A stretch of DNA of 31,444 nucleotides from a virus. Position 1 is the first letter of the stretch, and each line of letters starts with the position of its first letter. Of the stretch, positions 9,222 to 31,444 are shown piece by piece. Position numbers and translations under genes: made by a program. The notes under the pieces are model-generated. The model made no database searches, was not told the DNA's origin, and worked only from the letters and a program-made list of their open reading frames with translations. The stretch covers positions 1 through 31,444 of IMG/VR virus record IMGVR_UViG_3300032246_001409. One strand, 5' to 3'.

Positions 9222-9353
9222 TGCGGACGGAAACAACTTCCGTGAGCTTATTCCCCGCAATGTGCGGTTATTTCGTTGAACTTCGGGAAAGTCCTTCACG
9301 GTCTGCGGGAAAGTTATTTCGACTCCGTGCAAGTTCCGTGTAAGTTCCGGGTT
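9222..9353. promoter_or_regulatory. Immunity control region with repeated operator-like sites
   Basis: This lies between the divergent early operon and the repressor. The motif CAACTTCCGTG is at 9234-9244, CAAGTTCCGTG at 9330-9340, and a degenerate AACTTCGGG at about 9279-9287. GTTATTTC occurs at 9267 and 9313. TGCGG recurs at about 41-50 bp intervals (9222, 9263, 9304, 9355), and CCGCA/TGCGG forms an inverted repeat at 9255-9267. These are probably repressor binding sites. I could not place confident -35/-10 boxes on either strand. Confidence 0.65.
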
Positions 9354-9674
9354 ATGCGGAAACAGAAGCCAGCGGGCAGCGACAGACTCGCCGCCCGTCT
9401 AAAGCAACTCAGAGGTGGCCTGACTCAACAGCAGGCAGGCGAACGCGCTGGCATCAACGGCAACACTTGGCAGAACCTCGAACGGTCAATGGTGAAACCA
9501 CAACCGATCACGCTTCAACGTATTGCTAATGGGTTTGGCGTGGAATACGCCGAACTATGGTCCTATGTGGACGACCAGCCGCTAGTTGAGCGGTTTAGCG
9601 ACGAAGAGCTTGATCGACTTGCGATGCGCCTGGCACCGTTGATTGCTCAGCATCTTCGCTCGCAAGACCAATAG
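9354..9674 (+). CDS. Cro/CI-type HTH repressor
   Basis: A 106-residue protein and the only clear plus-strand gene. An XRE-family HTH occupies about residues 10-65 (LAARLKQLRGGLTQQQAGER, then NTWQNLERSMVKPQPITL). A short acidic helix region and C-terminal helices follow. There is no peptidase domain, so induction would not be by self-cleavage. I prefer ATG at 9354, at the natural HTH N-terminus; the frame back to 9276 would translate the operator repeats. No strong ribosome binding site precedes it, so a leaderless transcript is possible. It probably maintains lysogeny by silencing the leftward early operon. Confidence 0.85.
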   Translation: MRKQKPAGSDRLAARLKQLRGGLTQQQAGERAGINGNTWQNLERSMVKPQPITLQRIANGFGVEYAELWSYVDDQPLVERFSDEELDRLAMRLAPLIAQHLRSQDQ

Positions 9675-9935: not shown

Positions 9936-10343
9936 TCAGGACTCGGCGTGAGCTTTCCTTAGTGCCGCGTACATCAACAACCCATGCCTAAGTGCTTCCT
10001 GCAAGTACGCGGCCCGATGGTCGTCCTCAACGCCCTCGATCATCATGCGCTGCAGCTGCCAAGGCCCATAGTTGCCCACGCCGTCAGCAACCTCTTCCAG
10101 CCACTCCAATACAAGATCCCTGCCTTCCGGCAACCTGATGGGCCCAGGCTCAACTCGCTTGTTAGCGAAGGCGTGAAGGCTGTCAGCCACATGCGGCAAG
10201 CCAACAGCGTCGGCTGCGTTTCTCAGCACGTCAAGTTCGAACTGTGGATCGCGCTCCATCACATCATCAGCTGGCAGCGTGCTTCCACACTTCACACACT
10301 GATGCTCAAACCTTGGATCACTGTTGCGACTGTGATCGCACAT
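9936..10343 (-). CDS. Unknown protein with N-terminal zinc-ribbon-like motif
   Basis: A 135-residue protein. Near its N-terminus CDHSRNSDPRFEHQCVKCG offers Cys/His ligands (C2, H4, C17, C20). The rest is helical and acidic (LVLEWLEEVADGVGNYGPWQL, then a long C-terminal helix). ATG at 10343 overlaps the metallophosphoesterase stop (TAATG), so I rejected the frame to 10445. Co-expression with that gene is likely. No known function. Confidence 0.75.
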   Translation of the reverse strand: MCDHSRNSDPRFEHQCVKCGSTLPADDVMERDPQFELDVLRNAADAVGLPHVADSLHAFANKRVEPGPIRLPEGRDLVLEWLEEVADGVGNYGPWQLQRMMIEGVEDDHRAAYLQEALRHGLLMYAALRKAHAES

Positions 10344-11782
10344 TAGAACTGTTCCCCCCGCCATATTGCCTTCCCCCGTTTCTCGTCGAACACCGCGTGT
10401 TCGAGGTTCGTTTGCCCATCCGGAAATAACGTCACGGTTGCCCAACCGGGATGCCAGTCGCTACGTCCGTGGTTGTACCCCAGGTTGTTCTGTGCCATAT
10501 GCCCGATCTCAGCGCCCTGCACGATCGTGCTCACACCATCACGGTCAAACAACGCTTTGAACGCATGACTCTTGGCATGGGTGTGACCGACTGCAACGGA
10601 AGCTTGCAGGCTGTCCATTGTCTTCTTTGCAGGTTGCCCCCCGACGAACATGCCGTGCCGGATCTCAAAGTCCTCACCGATCCGTAGCCGGTTGTGTTTG
10701 TAGCCGCCCGGTTCGTCAATGCACTTGATGCCAAGCTCATCCATTCGGAGTAGTCGTTTGATGCTCAGCGCATCATCAGCCCGTCCAGCACCGGGAACAT
10801 CAGCTGGTCTGATGCCCCACAACCGTTCCGCCCTCAGAAGGCTCTCATTTCGAATGCGTTCGTCGTGGTTGCCGAGCATGAACCACCATTTCGTCTTCGG
10901 GCTTGCCTGAACTATCTCCGAGAGGATTTGATACCCCGTGTTGATGCAGTCCTGGGCGGTCGCGTTGAAGCGAGGGTCGCCACTGTCGCCGTACTTCGAA
11001 ATGTTGCTGAAGTCCACAAGGTCACCAAGGTGCACTCCACAATCAGGTTTGACGCGCTCACAGAAGCTCAAAAACGCCGTGTGAGCCGCTTCGCTGTGCA
11101 ACGGGGCCTGATGGTCGGACACGAGAACCCACGTCTGAGGACGCGATTGTGAAGCTGGCCGAACCTTTGGCATCCTCCGCGCTGGCGCGTCACTCGCCGG
11201 GAAGATCATGGCAAGGTCCGGCTTACGAATCAGATCGACGCGCAGCTGCTTATGCATTTGACCACCAGCGCCCATCCACTCATTCACACGAGCCCGGTCA
11301 ATCCTCCACTCGTCTAGGCTAAACCCACGTTCAAGGCAAAGCTCTTCAGCGTCTTTGAGCTCTGATGCGGTCAGGGTTGCAGTAGTGCCATCAAGCTTTG
11401 TGTTGTTGCCCGCACGAAGAGCCTTCGCATCAAGACCATGACGGCCAAGCTCATGCCGCAATGAACTATCCGTAACGCCCAATTGCTGGCTCACCGCTCG
11501 CAGCGTGGGGGCTTCCATAACCATTTTCTTTAGCACGTCAATCGACGGCCAGTTGATCGTGCCCGAGAACCGATCTGGTTTGCGCTCCGATTTACTTTTT
11601 GCGGCCTGAACTCGTTCCCTGAGCGTGAAATCACCCTCACGAATGAGCCTTCTGATGTGCGAGTGAATCGTCTGCTCGGGAACACCAAGCTGCAAACCGA
11701 CAGCGACAACACTGCCGTGCTGCTCGACTAGGGCAACAAGTTCTTCAGCTGTGGGGAGCGGCTTACGCTTGCTCACACCCAT
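10343..11782 (-). CDS. Metallophosphoesterase with two N-terminal HTH segments
   Basis: A 479-residue protein. Two helix-turn-helix-like units lie at about 10-50 (ELVALVEQHGSVVAVGLQLG) and 80-115 (LRAVSQQLGVTDSSLRHELG). The calcineurin-type domain spans about 215-460 with SDHQAPLH, GDLVDF, LGNHDER, RHGMF and GHTHAK, the full set of metal ligands. It probably hydrolyses a phosphodiester or phosphomonoester, and the HTH part suggests a DNA substrate or DNA tethering. I chose ATG at 11782 because the longer frame to 11902 would read through the lysis-operon terminator and an operator-like repeat. Its upstream region carries the immunity-type repeat, so repressor control is plausible. Confidence 0.85.
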   Translation of the reverse strand: MGVSKRKPLPTAEELVALVEQHGSVVAVGLQLGVPEQTIHSHIRRLIREGDFTLRERVQAAKSKSERKPDRFSGTINWPSIDVLKKMVMEAPTLRAVSQQLGVTDSSLRHELGRHGLDAKALRAGNNTKLDGTTATLTASELKDAEELCLERGFSLDEWRIDRARVNEWMGAGGQMHKQLRVDLIRKPDLAMIFPASDAPARRMPKVRPASQSRPQTWVLVSDHQAPLHSEAAHTAFLSFCERVKPDCGVHLGDLVDFSNISKYGDSGDPRFNATAQDCINTGYQILSEIVQASPKTKWWFMLGNHDERIRNESLLRAERLWGIRPADVPGAGRADDALSIKRLLRMDELGIKCIDEPGGYKHNRLRIGEDFEIRHGMFVGGQPAKKTMDSLQASVAVGHTHAKSHAFKALFDRDGVSTIVQGAEIGHMAQNNLGYNHGRSDWHPGWATVTLFPDGQTNLEHAVFDEKRGKAIWRGEQF

Positions 11783-11817
11783 AAGCCTGCGCAGCCCTTC
11801 GGACGGAATCCCGCATT

Positions 11818-11842
11818 GTGCAAGTTCCGTGCAGGTTATTTC
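11818..11842. promoter_or_regulatory. Operator-like repeat upstream of the metallophosphoesterase gene
   Basis: GTGCAAGTTCCGTG at 11818-11831 is a 14-base exact match to 9327-9340 in the immunity region. GTTATTTC follows at 11835-11842, matching 9267 and 9313. The site lies about 36 bases before the proposed start codon and next to a terminator, as expected for a repressor-controlled promoter. Confidence 0.6.
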
Positions 11843-11861
11843 TGCGTGGTAGAACGCGAAA

Positions 11862-11891
11862 TGGCCCCGCACCCCGAAGGGTGAGGGGCCA
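11862..11891 (-). terminator. Hairpin terminator after the lysis cassette
   Basis: A 12-bp stem (TGGCCCC plus CACCC on one side, one G-A mismatch) is capped by a CGAA-type tetraloop. It lies 30 bases beyond the holin stop. On the minus strand it is followed by TTTCGCGTTCT, a weak U-rich tail. It would end late transcription before the next regulated unit. Confidence 0.75.
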
Positions 11892-11920
11892 GCGGCCTGC
11901 AAACTCTGTGTTAAGGCCGA

Positions 11921-20374: not shown

Positions 20375-21565
20375 CTACGAAGCGGCCTGCTTGAGGCTCC
20401 GGAGAGCGGATGAGTCGGTGATCTTCGCGTCAACGCGGAGAGCAACCTTAAAGCCGACGTGGCCGGTGTCGGCAAAGCGCTCGTTGAGCACTGCAACCTG
20501 AACCGGGGTGCGGCGAACGGTGTAACCCATTGGGTCACCGTAAACAGCTACGACCTTGGTAGCGGCAGGAGCGTCAAGCTGCTCGATGTACACAGGCGAG
20601 CCCAGAAGGGTTGCCGGAGTACCAGCTGCGAGACCAGGCTGGAGGATGTAGTCGCCTGAGCCTGATGCCTTCAGCTTGCGAACACCCTTGAGCCATGTGT
20701 CGTTGACAAACCAAGCTGCCGATGCGCGGTACGGAGCCGAAAGGCTGTGCTGCGTGTCGAACACTTCGTCTGCTGTGGTAGCCGTTGTGGAAGCGGCAGT
20801 GACACCAACGGTGCACTTTGTGATTCCCTGCGGCTGTGATGAACCCGTACCAGTGGCGAGAACTGCACCAATCTGGTTGCCAAGGTAACGGGAAACCTGA
20901 CGCTGAACGTATGACGAGATGTCAAACGCAGCGTCGGCAAGGAGCTCTTCCGAGACCTTGATGATTGCACCGTACTTGTAAGCGCCAATGGCCGTCGAAG
21001 CGGTCGTCGGAGCTGGGTTTGAGTACGTTCCCTCTTCTGCAACTAGGGCGATTGCCTCGTCGGCAGTGCTGGTTGGGAGGTTGATGATCTGACCATCGCT
21101 CGTCTCAAGGATGTTCGAAAGGTCAAACAGTCGGGTCTGAAGGACCATTGACTGGATCAGCTGGTTGCTCCACTGTTGCGGAACCCACTCTGAGCCTGAG
21201 CCAGCTGTGGCCTTGACAAGAGTGGCACGAGCTTCAACGTCAGTTCCCTTCGAACGAAGGAAGCTGCCAAACATGTCAAGTGCATCGCGCTTCTCTTCGA
21301 CTGCAACACCCTCGTCGATGACGACGGGCGCTTCATCGCCAAAGGCGAGTGAACGGGCCTCGTCAGCCTTCATCTCAGGTGCGATTCCAGCAACACGCTC
21401 AAGGCGGTTGATGGTCTCATTGGTGGAATCAAGCTCGGCCTCGCGGCGATCGAACTCGGTTGCCTGCTCCGCAGTAAGGGTCTCGTTCTCGTCGAGGATG
21501 CGACGCATCTCGGCAAGCTGATGAGCAGCCTTGTGGCGGAGATCGGTGATCTTGTCGATTGACAT
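20375..21565 (-). CDS. Major capsid protein, HK97 fold
   Basis: A 396-residue protein. Residues 1-90 form a helical, acidic delta-domain-like scaffold (KITDLRHKAAHQLAEMRRIL, then EFDRREAELDSTNETINRLE). From about 120 the HK97 capsid fold follows, with ATLVKATAGSGSEWVPQQW, the P-domain, VSEELLADAAFDISSYVQRQ and the last strands (VAVYGDPMGYTVRRTPVQVA). Its neighbours are the prohead protease upstream and a hairpin downstream. The N-terminal scaffold would be removed by the protease. Confidence 0.95.
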   Translation of the reverse strand: MSIDKITDLRHKAAHQLAEMRRILDENETLTAEQATEFDRREAELDSTNETINRLERVAGIAPEMKADEARSLAFGDEAPVVIDEGVAVEEKRDALDMFGSFLRSKGTDVEARATLVKATAGSGSEWVPQQWSNQLIQSMVLQTRLFDLSNILETSDGQIINLPTSTADEAIALVAEEGTYSNPAPTTASTAIGAYKYGAIIKVSEELLADAAFDISSYVQRQVSRYLGNQIGAVLATGTGSSQPQGITKCTVGVTAASTTATTADEVFDTQHSLSAPYRASAAWFVNDTWLKGVRKLKASGSGDYILQPGLAAGTPATLLGSPVYIEQLDAPAATKVVAVYGDPMGYTVRRTPVQVAVLNERFADTGHVGFKVALRVDAKITDSSALRSLKQAAS

Positions 21566-21606: not shown

Positions 21607-22860
21607 TTACGCTGCGCGTTTGTCGCGCAACTTCAAACGGCGCGCCCTGTGTCGGTGCGTGCCCTCATCGTCAGCCCGCCGAGGCTGCGAGTCAGCCTGA
21701 GAGGACTGCTGCACGGCGGCACCCTGTCCCTCTTGCTCTGACTCACTTGTTGACGAAGATTGGTTGCTGCGCGTCAGCGCAACAGAAGTGGTGTCAGCGT
21801 AAGCCGGGAACACAACCGGGCTTACATCAAGCAGATCGTCAAACTCTGTGATCGTGCGAATCATTGTGCCGTCCGGTGCATCAGTCCACGTTTGACCTTC
21901 AGCCCTGACACGGAAAGCAAAGCTCGATTGGCTTACATCGCCACGCTCTAGGAGCACTTTGAGATCGCGCCCATAGCTGGTGTCAGCCACGTTGACCTCA
22001 TAAACAAGTCCCCTGGGGTCTTCACGAAGTGTGAGCGACCCATTAGTAGTGCGACCAAGGATCAGATTCTGATCGTGATTAAACAGGGCGGCAACATCAA
22101 GGTTGTCGCGCTTCAAAACTTTGCGAAACGCTCCACGTTGAATGACTTCACGGAACCCGCCAAGATCGCCTGACTCTGAACCAAACACGGCAGCGTGCCC
22201 AGTGAGCGTCCATCCACCATTCGCGGCTTCCCGGATTTCAGTAGTTACAGGAGCAATCCTGCGCTCGACCACATCAGCACCATTTCGCAGTTCACTTACC
22301 AACGCTGGATTTTCACGAAGATCTAGCTCGTTAATGATGCGCGTTTCCTTGTTCATAACGTCCTCCCTTGTGCCCGCTGCTGGGGCAAGTTCCGAGCGAC
22401 TATGGTTGCCGCCTCGTTCCACGTAAATCACCGATTTCCAACTTTCTCTTTTGATCTCTGTCAGGGCTGTTTGCAACTTCTGATAAAGCTCCTGAACGCG
22501 AGCGTCTGGTACTGGGTGCTCACGTGTTTTCTGAACATCAAGCAACGTCTGCAAGGGCGGGTTAAAAACAACGGCGTAAGCGGGCACTTTTGACCGTTGA
22601 GCAATGCCCAAAAGACGAGCTCGCATTCGTTTGCCGATACCAGTTGAATCAAAATAGACTTGATTGCCTGATTGGATGAGGTCAAACGTCTTTACGATTG
22701 CTTCCTCAACAACGTCAACTGGCTTAGCGTTTGGATCAGTCCTTAAAACTTCAAGGCTGACTCGTTTTGCATTGGGTAAGTTTTCTTGAGCCCATGTTGT
22801 TTTGCCAGCGCCAGGAGCGCCAATCAGCACAATTAGCGAGCGCTCTGGGTACTCGATCAT
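21607..22860 (-). CDS. P-loop kinase fused to HK97 prohead protease
   Basis: A 417-residue fusion. Residues 1-150 form a polynucleotide-kinase-like P-loop domain (AAA_33 type): GAPGAGKTTWA at 14-24, VYFDSTGIGKRMRARLLG at about 68-85, then AVVFNPPLQTLLDVQKTREH and a C-terminal helix. Residues about 200-360 are a U35 prohead protease: FNHDQNLILGR with His262, SQSSFAF with Ser312/313, then a Ser/Gln-rich tail. There is no stop between them. An internal ATG at 22356 (Met169) has a perfect GGGAGG site, so free protease (249 residues) is probably also made. The kinase alone is known in actinophages; the fusion to the maturation protease is unusual. Confidence 0.9.
   Translation of the reverse strand: MIEYPERSLIVLIGAPGAGKTTWAQENLPNAKRVSLEVLRTDPNAKPVDVVEEAIVKTFDLIQSGNQVYFDSTGIGKRMRARLLGIAQRSKVPAYAVVFNPPLQTLLDVQKTREHPVPDARVQELYQKLQTALTEIKRESWKSVIYVERGGNHSRSELAPAAGTREDVMNKETRIINELDLRENPALVSELRNGADVVERRIAPVTTEIREAANGGWTLTGHAAVFGSESGDLGGFREVIQRGAFRKVLKRDNLDVAALFNHDQNLILGRTTNGSLTLREDPRGLVYEVNVADTSYGRDLKVLLERGDVSQSSFAFRVRAEGQTWTDAPDGTMIRTITEFDDLLDVSPVVFPAYADTTSVALTRSNQSSSTSESEQEGQGAAVQQSSQADSQPRRADDEGTHRHRARRLKLRDKRAA
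22354..22367 (-). promoter_or_regulatory. Internal ribosome binding site and ATG within the kinase-protease gene
   Basis: AAGGGAGGACGTTATG on the minus strand: GGAGG sits five bases before ATG at 22356, in frame with the fusion and exactly at the domain border. It would let the protease be translated without the kinase. Confidence 0.7.
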
Positions 22861-22862
22861 GT

Positions 22863-24056
22863 TTAAACGCTTGTGCCGTCAGAAGGTGGTTGTGGTGCGT
22901 CTAATGGTGCGTCAGCGACCATTTCGATCGGCCCACGGTTTAGTTCGGACCGAACTTCGTCACGAGTGACAATGCCTTCCTTAAACAAGGCAAGGTTGAT
23001 ATCCGCAATTGTCTTCGTGTCACCACGGGTAAGATCGGTGGTGTCAAACTTCAAGCTGAACTGACTTCCCAAACCATTGGTGGAAAGCAGATCCGTGTCG
23101 CGCATCAAGCTCTTCTCCCAGCGAGTAAGCCAGCGGCGAAGAGTGAACCTCACAAAGTGCTCGTACTCCATTGCCGTCGTCGTGTAGGTCAAACTTGACC
23201 CATTAGCGTTTGTCTGCAGCATGTGCGCTGGAATCTGCATCAGGCGAGCAACGTTCAGCGTCGAAAGCTCCATCTGCTGAACCATCTGAGCATCTTCCAA
23301 AGGAAGGCTCATCGGCTCAAACTTCATGCCCTCTTCAAGAATGGCCACACGGGATGCGTTGCCCGTTCCCCCATGCGAAGCGTGCCATTGAGCACGAAGA
23401 CGCTCGGCAGCCTCCGGGCTTAACCTATTTGGATGCGTAAGTACACCGCCAGGGGTTGCATTGTTAGCCCAGAACTTGCCCGCGTACTTTTCAACTGCGG
23501 CATAAGTTCCAAGGCCCTGACGTGCCATCTGAATTGGGCTTACGCCAACCAGCCCGTCAAAGCTCAGGCCACGAATATGAATGAAGTCACGTTGTGTGAA
23601 CGGGCCCTTGTTGCCATCAATTACGTAATAGGGAACACCGTTCTTGTCACGGTCAACCTTGACGCGCTCAGGAGCAATCGGCCAAAGCTCTGTGACCTTT
23701 TTATTAGTCTTGACCTTCAGTAGAAAGGCATTTCCCCAAAGCAACAGGTGCCCCATTGCGACCTCGATAAGCTCGCCGCCATCCATCCAAGCGTTCGGTG
23801 AGTCAAGGAGCTTGGCTACTGGATGGTGTGGCGTTTCGATGCGAGTGCCATCGGGCTGTGTGCGATAAACGTGCAACGGAAGGCTGCCCACTGCGCCAGC
23901 GACCAGCTGCACTGCGGCCCAGACTGGGACAAGGCGAACACTGTTCTTGTTCGTAACGGATTCGTTAGCGAAAGTTTGTTCGAGGAAAACTGCATCGTCG
24001 TTCACAAACTCGATCGGCACAGCACTGCGCTGCGACCACTTGTCGAAGAGGCCCAA
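22863..24056 (-). CDS. Portal protein, HK97/phage portal family
   Basis: A 397-residue portal. It has VPVWAAVQLVAGAVGSLPLH near the N-terminus, LIEVAMGHLLLWGNAFLLKV, FIHIRGLSFDGLVGVSPIQM, and the late LNVARLMQIPAHML with FVRFTLRRWLTRWEKSLM. The start is TTG at 24056, with AGGAG six bases upstream. The dodecameric portal would be the packaging channel between terminase and head. It lies between terminase and the kinase-protease gene as expected. Confidence 0.95.
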   Translation of the reverse strand: MGLFDKWSQRSAVPIEFVNDDAVFLEQTFANESVTNKNSVRLVPVWAAVQLVAGAVGSLPLHVYRTQPDGTRIETPHHPVAKLLDSPNAWMDGGELIEVAMGHLLLWGNAFLLKVKTNKKVTELWPIAPERVKVDRDKNGVPYYVIDGNKGPFTQRDFIHIRGLSFDGLVGVSPIQMARQGLGTYAAVEKYAGKFWANNATPGGVLTHPNRLSPEAAERLRAQWHASHGGTGNASRVAILEEGMKFEPMSLPLEDAQMVQQMELSTLNVARLMQIPAHMLQTNANGSSLTYTTTAMEYEHFVRFTLRRWLTRWEKSLMRDTDLLSTNGLGSQFSLKFDTTDLTRGDTKTIADINLALFKEGIVTRDEVRSELNRGPIEMVADAPLDAPQPPSDGTSV

Positions 24057-26073: not shown

Positions 26074-26445
26074 TCAGCCGGTAGGTTGAGTGCCTTGCCT
26101 TCGCCGTGAGGCGCGATGTTCGGCCTCAACTATTGGGTGGCACGTTCGGCACAGGACTTGAAGGTTGGTTTGGTCGTGGGTGCCTCCCTCGATCAGGGGG
26201 AGGATGTGATGCACGGTCAGATCATTGGGTGAGTAGCACCGTTCGCACATGCCACTTGTGCGGCTGATGGCTCTAGCCCTTGCCCGTCGCCACTCTGCTG
26301 TCTTGTATGCGCTGCGGTCCCGTCGGGCTGTGCCTTGTCTTGCCGTGTCGTAGTACGAGCGCTTTGCCGTGTGGCATTTGGGACAGCGCGATCTGCCGTT
26401 GCCCTGGGGGAAGAGCTTGCCGCACGTTAGGCAGCTGACTTGCAT
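26074..26445 (-). CDS. HNH endonuclease next to terminase
   Basis: A 123-residue HNH nuclease. Two zinc pairs lie at the N-terminus (CLTCGK, CPKC). CERCYSPNDLTVHHILPLIE holds the first HNH strands and the His pair, followed by TNLQVLCRTCHPIVE. ATG at 26445 overlaps the tail fibre stop (TAATG). HNH proteins beside terminase are often required for cos cleavage and packaging in HK97-type phages, and this is the likely role here. Confidence 0.92.
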   Translation of the reverse strand: MQVSCLTCGKLFPQGNGRSRCPKCHTAKRSYYDTARQGTARRDRSAYKTAEWRRARARAISRTSGMCERCYSPNDLTVHHILPLIEGGTHDQTNLQVLCRTCHPIVEAEHRASRRRQGTQPTG

Positions 26446-28919
26446 TAGCTGCTGAGGACTGTGACGCGCAGGGCGTTGTTGGATTGCGCTGGGCTTGAGC
26501 TGCCCGACCAGCCAAGGTTGATGCCTGAGTCTTGTCGTGCGTCGATTCTGATGGTGTCAAGCGTGTTGCATTTCATTATGTATGAAAGGTCCGTGTTCTG
26601 GACAAGGGCATTGGCTGGGATGCTTACGCCGGGCCGGTCAATGACTGTTCCGCCACTGTCAACGTGTCGGATTAGCATTGCTCGACCGCCAGTAGCGTTT
26701 GTTGTCCAGCCAATGTGGGCGCTTACAAGGATTGTACAGCCGTAGTTGATTTGGATGTATCCAGCAGTGTGGCTGGTTCCTGATGCTGAACCGAGTGAAT
26801 ATGAAAGGTACGTTGTGTCGCCTGTTTGATCTGCGGCGTTGAGTCCAATGCCGACGACGGTTGATCCGCTTGCGATTACTTGGGCTGTGTTTGACCACAT
26901 GAAGATTGTTGGCAGCTGGAACTTAGTTGACGTGATGTTCGCTCCTGAAGAAACGTCAGAGTCAACGAGCTTGCTTTGAGACAGAACACCACCTGATGTT
27001 GCTCTTACGATTCCGGCAACGCTGCCTGGGATGGTGACCGTTCCTGTGAACGTTGGGCTTGCCGTTGGTGCCGCGCCAATATCCGAAGGAACGAGCGCAT
27101 CACTGCCTCCGGTTGCGTGTGAAGACTTATGCGCTGTGGGAGTGCGCGTGTCTGACAACCGTGAATCATTTCCCGCAGCTGCTTCCGTCGCACCTGTTCC
27201 AAGTGCCCTCACGCTTGCAGTGCCAGCGGCTTGAACGGTAAGCCCAGTGTGCGTGTGGTTGCCTGCTGCGGCTTCCGTTGCTCCAGTGCCAAGTGCCCGA
27301 ACGCTTGCAGTGCCAGCGGCTTGAACGGTAAGGCCCGTGTGACTGTGATCTGATGCGGCTGCCGTGAGTGCTGTGCCGTCTCCCGCAATCGCTCTGACGG
27401 ATGCTGTGCCTTGGGCTGCTGCGGTTGTTAGGTTGACGCTTGATGCCTGTTTGTCTGCAAGGTCAGTCGTGAGGTTTGTGACCTGTGATTGGGCAATCGT
27501 GATCGGGTCTGAGCCCGCGCTTCCGTGTGACGAAGCGTGACTTGTTGGTGTTCGGGAGTCTGATAGGCGACTGTCGGATGTGATGACAGCAGTGCCGGTG
27601 ATGTCAGCTGGGGCGTGGGTGTGCGATGTGGTTGCCGCACCAATGCTGGCTGGTGTGATGCTAACCGCACCAGTGTTTCCGTTGACGCTGAGAACTACAT
27701 CGAGCGGGGTTTGCAGGAGTGTCCAGTCGGCCATTGTGCTAGCCGTGCCCGTGTTTTTGATGTAGCTCTTTGACTCATCGGTCCGGACTGCAACGTCGCC
27801 TTCCTGTGACGTCAGGGCAAGCTGGGCGGCTTGTGAGCCGACCGTGTAAACGCTGGTAATGGCGATCGCTGGAAGTTGAGCGCTGCTGATCTGCCCGCTG
27901 CTGTCAAGACCTGCAACACCATTGGCAACGTTCTTGCTCGCCGCGTCAACAACTTTGTTAGTGCTGCTGATGCTGGTGCTTGATGTGGTGTGGCTTGCAC
28001 TGACAGCTTTATCACTCGTGACGTTCGCACCAGAGGTCATACCGCCTGAAAGGTCAAGGGCATGGCCGTGGTCTGCGCGGGCTGGGTAACCGTTGGAGCC
28101 TGCACCAATAGCGTTTGTTGACGAAGACGTGACAGTCAGCGGTGTGATTGTGCCGTTGCTTGCCTGATTTACCCAAGACTGCCATGTGCCCGGAGTGCCG
28201 CCCGTGATGCAAACTTGGATTCGACCATTGAGGGCAACAAGCATGTCACCCTGAAGCCATGTTCCCGTTGTTGGCGGATTGGACGAAGAGTTGTAACCGC
28301 AGAACCTGTTAGCGGCATAGCCACCGATAGGGTTGCTGAGAAGTTTAGAAGTATCCGCGATGCCGTGAACGCTTGTAGTGCCAGCAGTGTGCGAGTCAAG
28401 GCTGGACTGCAAAGCGACTCCACCAGACCCGGTTGTGATGCCTATTGTTGCTGATGTGCTTGAGCCTGAGTTGGTAATCGGAGCAGTAACGCCAACAACA
28501 CCCGATGGTCCTTGAGCGCCAGTTGCGCCAGTGTCACCCTTTGCACCAGTCGCACCAGTCGGGCCGGTTGAGCCAGTGGCACCAGTTGAGCCTGTTGGCC
28601 CAGTTGGACCCTGCGAACCAGTAGCGCCCGTTGCACCCTGTGATGCGACCAACTGCCACTTACTGCTAACCCCTGGCACATCCGTTGAAAGAGTGGCCTG
28701 CTTGGCGTAATAGCTAGACCCCGAATACGAAACAAAGTCATTGAGGCTGTAAGCCTGGGCACTCCACGCGCCTTGGCTATTAAGCGTAGTGCCAGCTGGA
28801 CCCTGTGGGCCCGTCCCACCAACACGAAGGATTTTTGTCTGGTCATTGAGTTTCACCGTAAGACCGTTAGCCGTGATCTTCACAGTTTTCTCAACTGCGT
28901 TGACCTTCACGACACTCAT
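26445..28919 (-). CDS. Collagen-like tail fibre / receptor-binding protein
   Basis: An 824-residue fibre. Residues 1-46 form a short head-end domain. Residues 48-92 resemble a chitin-binding-like module ([20 protein letters not shown], then WQLV). Residues 95-140 hold about 15 uninterrupted Gly-X-Y triplets. The middle region has repeated His-rich turns ([29 protein letters not shown]), including a 30-residue unit duplicated as a 90-bp DNA repeat. The C-terminal 150 residues are a beta-rich head domain ([18 protein letters not shown]), probably the receptor-binding part. It sits upstream of terminase, far from the other tail genes. ATG at 28919 overlaps the previous stop. Confidence 0.9.
27211..27330. 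repeat. 90-bp direct repeat in the tail fibre gene
   Basis: The 30-base sequence starting ACGCTTGCAGTGCCAGCGGC at 27211-27240 recurs exactly at 27301-27330. The offset of 90 bases equals one 30-residue fibre unit. It could allow fibre length change by recombination. Confidence 0.85.
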
Positions 28920-31270: not shown

Positions 31271-31444
31271 CATTCACGGCCTTACGAATGCGATCTCGGG
31301 CAGCTGCCTCGCTTGGATGTCCGTAAATCGTCTGCACTAGAACGCCACCATCTGTGTGTCCTAGTTGAACGGCCACATCGGACGGACTCAAGCCCTGCTC
31401 AAGAAGATAGGTGGCGCAGAAGTGCCTAAGCTCGTAGTAGTGCA
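31227..31444 (-). CDS. int: Integrase, C-terminal part with the nucleophile tyrosine
   Basis: This is the 3' end of the integrase split by the window edges; its first 123 bases duplicate 1-123. It carries the motif LGHTDGGVLVQTIYGHPS with the active-site Tyr, then a short basic tail ending in TAA at 31227-31229. Two TGTGAGGTC repeats, read on the plus strand at 31251 and 31262, lie within this coding end, so the gene tail and part of the attachment site share the same DNA. Confidence 0.95.
   Translation of the reverse strand, partial: HYYELRHFCATYLLEQGLSPSDVAVQLGHTDGGVLVQTIYGHPSEAAARDRIRKAVNGPHTDLTQDSQDSL
31322..31444. repeat. Right copy of 123-bp terminal direct repeat
   Basis: Exact copy of bases 1-123. 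Position 31321 is the last unique base. Minus-strand reading passes from position 1 to position 31321 without breaking the integrase frame. Confidence 0.95.

Follow-up and report, generated by a model that had tools for sequence, protein, structure and literature searches.

Why should a phage gene join a polynucleotide kinase-like domain to a prohead protease, and which products would such a gene make? The question is raised by one gene in the stretch of viral DNA analysed here (the window, 31,444 bp). An exact 123-bp direct repeat at its ends (positions 1-123 equal 31322-31444) identifies this record as a complete or circularly permuted genome. The gene lies among head genes read, on the minus strand, in the order terminase, portal, fused gene and major capsid protein (Table 1). 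A reading made earlier from the sequence alone had placed it correctly at 21607-22860 without giving the strand; the plus strand is full of stops there.

Table 1. Features of the fused gene and its neighbours, in window positions
Feature	Positions	Strand	Basis or remark
Portal protein, upstream neighbour	22863..24056	minus	PF04860, 2.7e-93
Whole fused gene, ATG to TAA, 417 aa	22860→21607	minus	open frame and two Pfam domains above cut-off
Start codon of the putative long product	22858..22860	minus	2 nt past portal stop; SD -1.8 kcal/mol
PNK-like P-loop kinase domain, residues 1-151	22408..22860	minus	GAPGAGKTT at residues 14-22
Linker, residues 152-168 (...ELAPAAGTREDV)	22357..22407	minus	homologous to linkers of L004 and L041 (alignment)
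Internal Shine-Dalgarno (SD) AAGGGAGG	22362..22369	minus	conserved in relatives
Core protease from internal ATG 22356, predicted, 249 aa	21607..22356	minus	
Peptidase_S78 domain, residues 208-363	21772..22239	minus	Pfam, 146.7 bits against cut-off 21, E 9.1e-43
Protease tail, residues 364-417, low-complexity, then basic helical	21610..21771	minus	kept among relatives
Major capsid protein	20375..21565	minus	PF05065, 4.1e-48, residues 127-391

A kinase domain in frame with the prohead protease

The sequence-only reading described a complete P-loop kinase domain running in frame into a U35-type protease with its His and Ser motifs, and we found this to be so. The frame of 417 residues is unbroken, and a domain search of the two halves returned the families predicted for them, AAA_33 and Peptidase_S78 (the present name of Peptidase_U35). 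The protease also matches the NCBIfam model TIGR01543 for HK97 proheadases (104.7 bits against 59, 4.3e-30). Its catalytic motifs are invariant in ten aligned relatives: H262 in NH(D/S), here NHD, and S312-S313 in SSFAF. Judged by these motifs the protease is intact, and cleavage of the capsid protein is predicted for it. A low-confidence model places a helix at residues 395-416 of the tail. The catalytic domain, the His and Ser motifs and the portal-protease-capsid order are shared with the HK97 family (Peptidase_S78, TIGR01543, phrog_80), and the capsid protein of the window likewise has a delta-like N-terminal region, with about 126 residues before the capsid fold. The window differs from this family in having a kinase module at the N-terminus, with a conserved internal start where the two parts meet.

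The AAA_33 match (residues 9-128, 52.7 bits against a cut-off of 27, E 7.4e-14) speaks against the absence of a kinase fold, and phrog_505, polynucleotide kinase, matches the same half (4e-9). The nearest solved structures are 4gp6 and its kin, 171-residue chains deposited as 'Metallophosphoesterase' (5e-8), which we identify as the Pnkp kinase domain of Clostridium thermocellum. Aligned with this domain and five kinases of phages, the window keeps every invariant residue: G19, K20, R40, T73, R113 and V117. The module thus has the Walker A P-loop, the Arg of the DxxR position (Arg40), the lid Arg113 and the domain length of AAA_33 polynucleotide kinases, though Glu37 stands where these have the general-base Asp (the D of DxxR), and the insert after this Glu is shorter. 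Because of Glu37 we call the domain PNK-like rather than a proven polynucleotide kinase, and kinase activity cannot be assumed. Unlike these kinases, it has no phosphatase or ligase partner domain and is joined to a head protease instead; its score of 42 against the cut-off of 750 of the full-length equivalog bacter_Pnkp is what one expects of a lone domain. An AlphaFold run on the fusion with the alignment of the loci left the kinase part unmodelled (pLDDT around 25). The G+C content is 49% in the kinase part and 55% in the protease part, against 55.6% in the genome; the lower value is compatible with a later acquisition of the kinase, without proving it.

Each part belongs to a known family, and the combination was met once only. 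A viral-contig search with the kinase as sole query found no relative. Among the tblastn matches listed for the kinase in phages (72 records), most were PNK/ligase-type genes of large phages and none was annotated as a head gene. The best of these matches (MT836289, L032) was dropped: its kinase frame continues into unrelated sequence, and no phage head genes were noticed in it. In 395 genomes from the class of an Actinomycetota MAG, matches were to the kinase only or the protease only, with no clear fusion; two kinase matches listed there extend beyond the kinase domain (to query positions 256 and 271). Across these searches the window is the sole kinase-bearing genome, and a second kinase-protease fusion was not found.

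Two starts in one frame

The sequence-only reading had also proposed an internal ribosome binding site before ATG 22356, at the domain border. The site is there: AAGGGAGG, read from 22369 to 22362, has an SD energy of -11.8 kcal/mol, the strongest of the 76 internal in-frame ATGs of 12 window genes (runner-up -7.5) and stronger than that of any of the 12 gene starts tested, which reach -11.6 at most. Taken alone it is only moderately unusual, because synonymous reshuffling of the peptide AAGTREDV does equally well in 245 of 5000 cases (4.9%). Since the peptide itself favours a strong SD, the argument for an internal start rests on its conservation in relatives.

This conservation is extensive. 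Across the group the border start is retained as ATG, GTG or TTG, and most of the phages that keep the site (L002, L003, L004, L034, L036, L041 and L050-L052) have no module upstream of it. The very same AAGGGAGG occurs at the border in L002, L003 and L041, all at -11.8 like the window, and AAGGGAGA in L004 (-8.9) and L036 (-11.2); the energies are -11.5 in L050 and L051 and -9.3 in L034 and L052. Weaker sites (-6.3 to -7.0) are found in three relatives with a Dps module (L037, L054 and L058). In L033 we looked for a good internal start at the border and it is missing, so the free protease does not come from the border start in every relative.

The start of the long product follows the portal stop by 2 nt in the window and in L037, and in L041 the module start overlaps that stop by 8 nt. 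Since ATG 22860 is nearly devoid of an SD and the internal start is kept in module-free relatives, ATG 22356 is probably the original and principal start of the protease, and the kinase-protease fusion probably a minor product coupled to the portal stop. The sequence-only reading, sound on the fusion, the identity of the domains and the internal ribosome binding site, had allowed for both products and is revised here as to their rank. Nested in-frame pairs of this kind have a precedent in phage lambda, where gpC and Nu3 are two head-assembly products made from one frame by means of an internal start. The lambda short product is a scaffold, the C-terminus of the protease, whereas in the window it would be the protease itself, from a strong and conserved internal SD. 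Three nested starts seem possible in L037 (2374-4071), for phrog_2859-Dps-S78, for Dps-S78 (ATG 2740, SD -11.5) and for S78 alone.

A module slot on the protease

A survey of fused and split forms in related phages had been suggested, and it changes how the gene is to be seen. In two relatives, L002 and L003, the protease is 97-98% identical to that of the window and the DNA on both flanks 88-96% identical, yet the kinase is absent. Their protease ATG overlaps the portal stop, and their similarity to the window is picked up again practically at the internal AGGGAGG. The core-protease tree groups the window with L002, L003 and L004 as one clade (100/100), within which the kinase is known from the window alone; the L004 contig begins too near its linker to show what the linker joins.

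Other phages of the wider group, which was collected by terminase and protease scans, have different domains in the same place. A ferritin/Dps domain, akin to iron-storage proteins, precedes S78 in frame in L033 (5.5e-13), L054 (2.6e-17) and L058 (7.9e-14). L037 has phrog_2859, Dps and S78 in one frame, and L041 has phrog_2859, a four-cysteine HiPIP-like domain akin to an iron-sulphur protein (HIPIP 0.002, under the Pfam cut-off), and S78. The module is in frame in six of the six extended members of the window group whose sequence is known (the window, L033, L037, L041, L054 and L058). The order phrog_2859, HiPIP-like, Dps and S78 is found in one frame in L129, an Actinomycetota MAG contig. 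The isolate Pontimonas phage phiPsal1, with a circular genome of similar size (31,069 bp), likewise has N-terminal modules in frame with S78, in its case HiPIP-like and phrog_2859 where the window has the kinase; the annotation of the protein (AUV61415) names nothing but a prohead protease. In the core-protease tree, most branchings around the Dps and HiPIP-like forms lack resolution.

Because close relatives have no kinase and others have different in-frame modules at the same place, we regard the kinase as one of several domains that can fill a module slot on this protease. The module-bearing protease is hence not the isolated case that it had first appeared to be. In L144-L150 S78 comes first, with the phrog_2859 and HiPIP-like modules on its C-terminal side, the HiPIP-like part recognised by eye from the pattern CxNC...ICKLWVIPE that it has in common with L041; attachment to the protease therefore seems to weigh more than the position after the portal gene. 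In L144 (1406-3136), L145, L146 and L148-L150 these C-terminal modules are followed by a helical tail. A long extension at one end is present in 25 of 106 distinct S78 frames, a sample that is not random, and at least one of these is a C-terminal capsid fusion. L046 (3192-5036) has S78 and Phage_capsid in one frame, the protease being joined directly to the major capsid protein. L158 (2798-4609) has an S78 frame of 603 aa with about 395 residues at the N-terminal side, including weak matches to DUF3721 and DUF5824, putatively a further module set on an S78 protease.

Possible roles of the fused module

A mechanism may be proposed from these observations. A PNK-like module would have been exchanged in frame into the 5' end of an HK97-type prohead protease gene. 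Ribosomes would start mainly at 22356 and yield free protease, and coupling to the portal stop would yield a smaller share of the kinase-protease fusion. With the protease and its basic tail common to both products, the fusion would be incorporated into the prohead beside the free protease, which would make the protease a loading tag, and the ratio of the two starts would set the number of module copies carried in. The protease may later sever the module inside the prohead, leaving it to stay in the head for injection or to depart. We regard this joint account, from module exchange to the severing of the module, as evenly poised between right and wrong, and loading and release by cleavage as plausible. 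In phage T4, internal proteins reach the prohead by means of propeptides, which the protease gp21 removes (PMC9026906). The idea of enzymes that enter the prohead and are released by the protease is thus shared with T4 Alt and IPI-III, where the capsid-targeting tag is a short propeptide; in the window the process is proposed only, and the protease would take the part of the tag. We recognised no cleavage motif in the linker between module and protease. The kinase, Dps and HiPIP-like modules have no obvious single function in common, which counts against a loading explanation. More broadly, one might tentatively speculate that prohead proteases have become dedicated cargo carriers in a group of environmental, partly actinobacterial phages: exchangeable enzyme or metal-binding modules would enter the prohead on the protease, be released there and reach the next host along with the DNA, and an internal start would provide cargo-free protease.

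The fusion may instead be made and its kinase serve in the infected cell, in end or RNA repair, the slot being merely a place that tolerates insertions and has no part in functional packaging. Phage polynucleotide kinases such as that of T4 are generally known to work in the cytoplasm, in RNA repair with RNA ligase (PMC9703825), and insertions are readily accommodated at the border of a gene. A pure insertion site leaves unexplained why all the extended members of the group with known sequence are in frame and why other phages have their modules at the C-terminus, and we find this explanation somewhat unlikely.

It is also conceivable that the module serves the protease as a scaffold-like or regulatory part, acting through spacing, dosage or delayed activation, with a dead kinase whose enzymatic ancestry is incidental. 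The replacement of the catalytic Asp by Glu gives this mild support, and folds as unrelated as kinase, Dps and HiPIP-like recur at one place as if mass or assembly outweighed chemistry. But the P-loop, Arg40, Thr73 and the lid Arg113 are retained in the kinase, and the Dps module retains, by eye, the HxxHWNVxG...HID.LAE residues of solved Dps proteins. Phages with no module are moreover common and presumably viable. We judge such a role quite unlikely.

It is very improbable that free protease from 22356 is the sole product, with a kinase frame barely translated and joined to it as a by-product of module shuffling. The gap between the SD energies at 22860 and 22356 fits this idea, but the geometry of ATG 22860 relative to the portal stop is good for re-initiation, the SD of the long product is strong in L054 (-9.6) and moderate in L058 (-6.5), and the kinase frame is unbroken and matches its domain family strongly. 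An assembly chimera, or a frameshift or stop missed near 22356, is scarcely credible even for a kinase known from a single metagenomic record, because both flanks are collinear with the independent contigs L002 and L003, the linker is homologous to those of L004 and L041, the record closes with its terminal repeat, and comparable fusions are known from further contigs and from an isolate.

In the open-access literature searched, we met no account of prohead proteases with fused, exchangeable accessory domains, and PHROGs already places long forms such as that of phiPsal1 among ordinary proteases (phrog_80). Were the protease to bring the modules in, HK97-type phages would possess a general means of packing non-structural enzymes into their heads with no separate targeting tag, and many proteins labelled only 'prohead protease' would conceal a second function. 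As an isolate with a module-bearing protease, phiPsal1 offers a system in which this can be tested.

Some other genes of the window deserve mention. We noticed no integrase; a frame with a repressor-like XRE-type HTH (by eye) lies at 9276-9674 (plus strand), the head genes being on the other strand. On the minus strand, 10343-11902 encodes a 519-aa protein with metallophosphoesterase-like motifs seen by eye (GDLVDF, GNHDE, GHTH), for which Pfam gives only weak HTH matches; it could be a candidate partner of the PNK-like kinase. The minus strand also encodes a C-5 cytosine DNA methyltransferase (1190-2305; PF00145, 7.4e-55) and a tail protein of 824 aa with collagen-like repeats (26445-28919).
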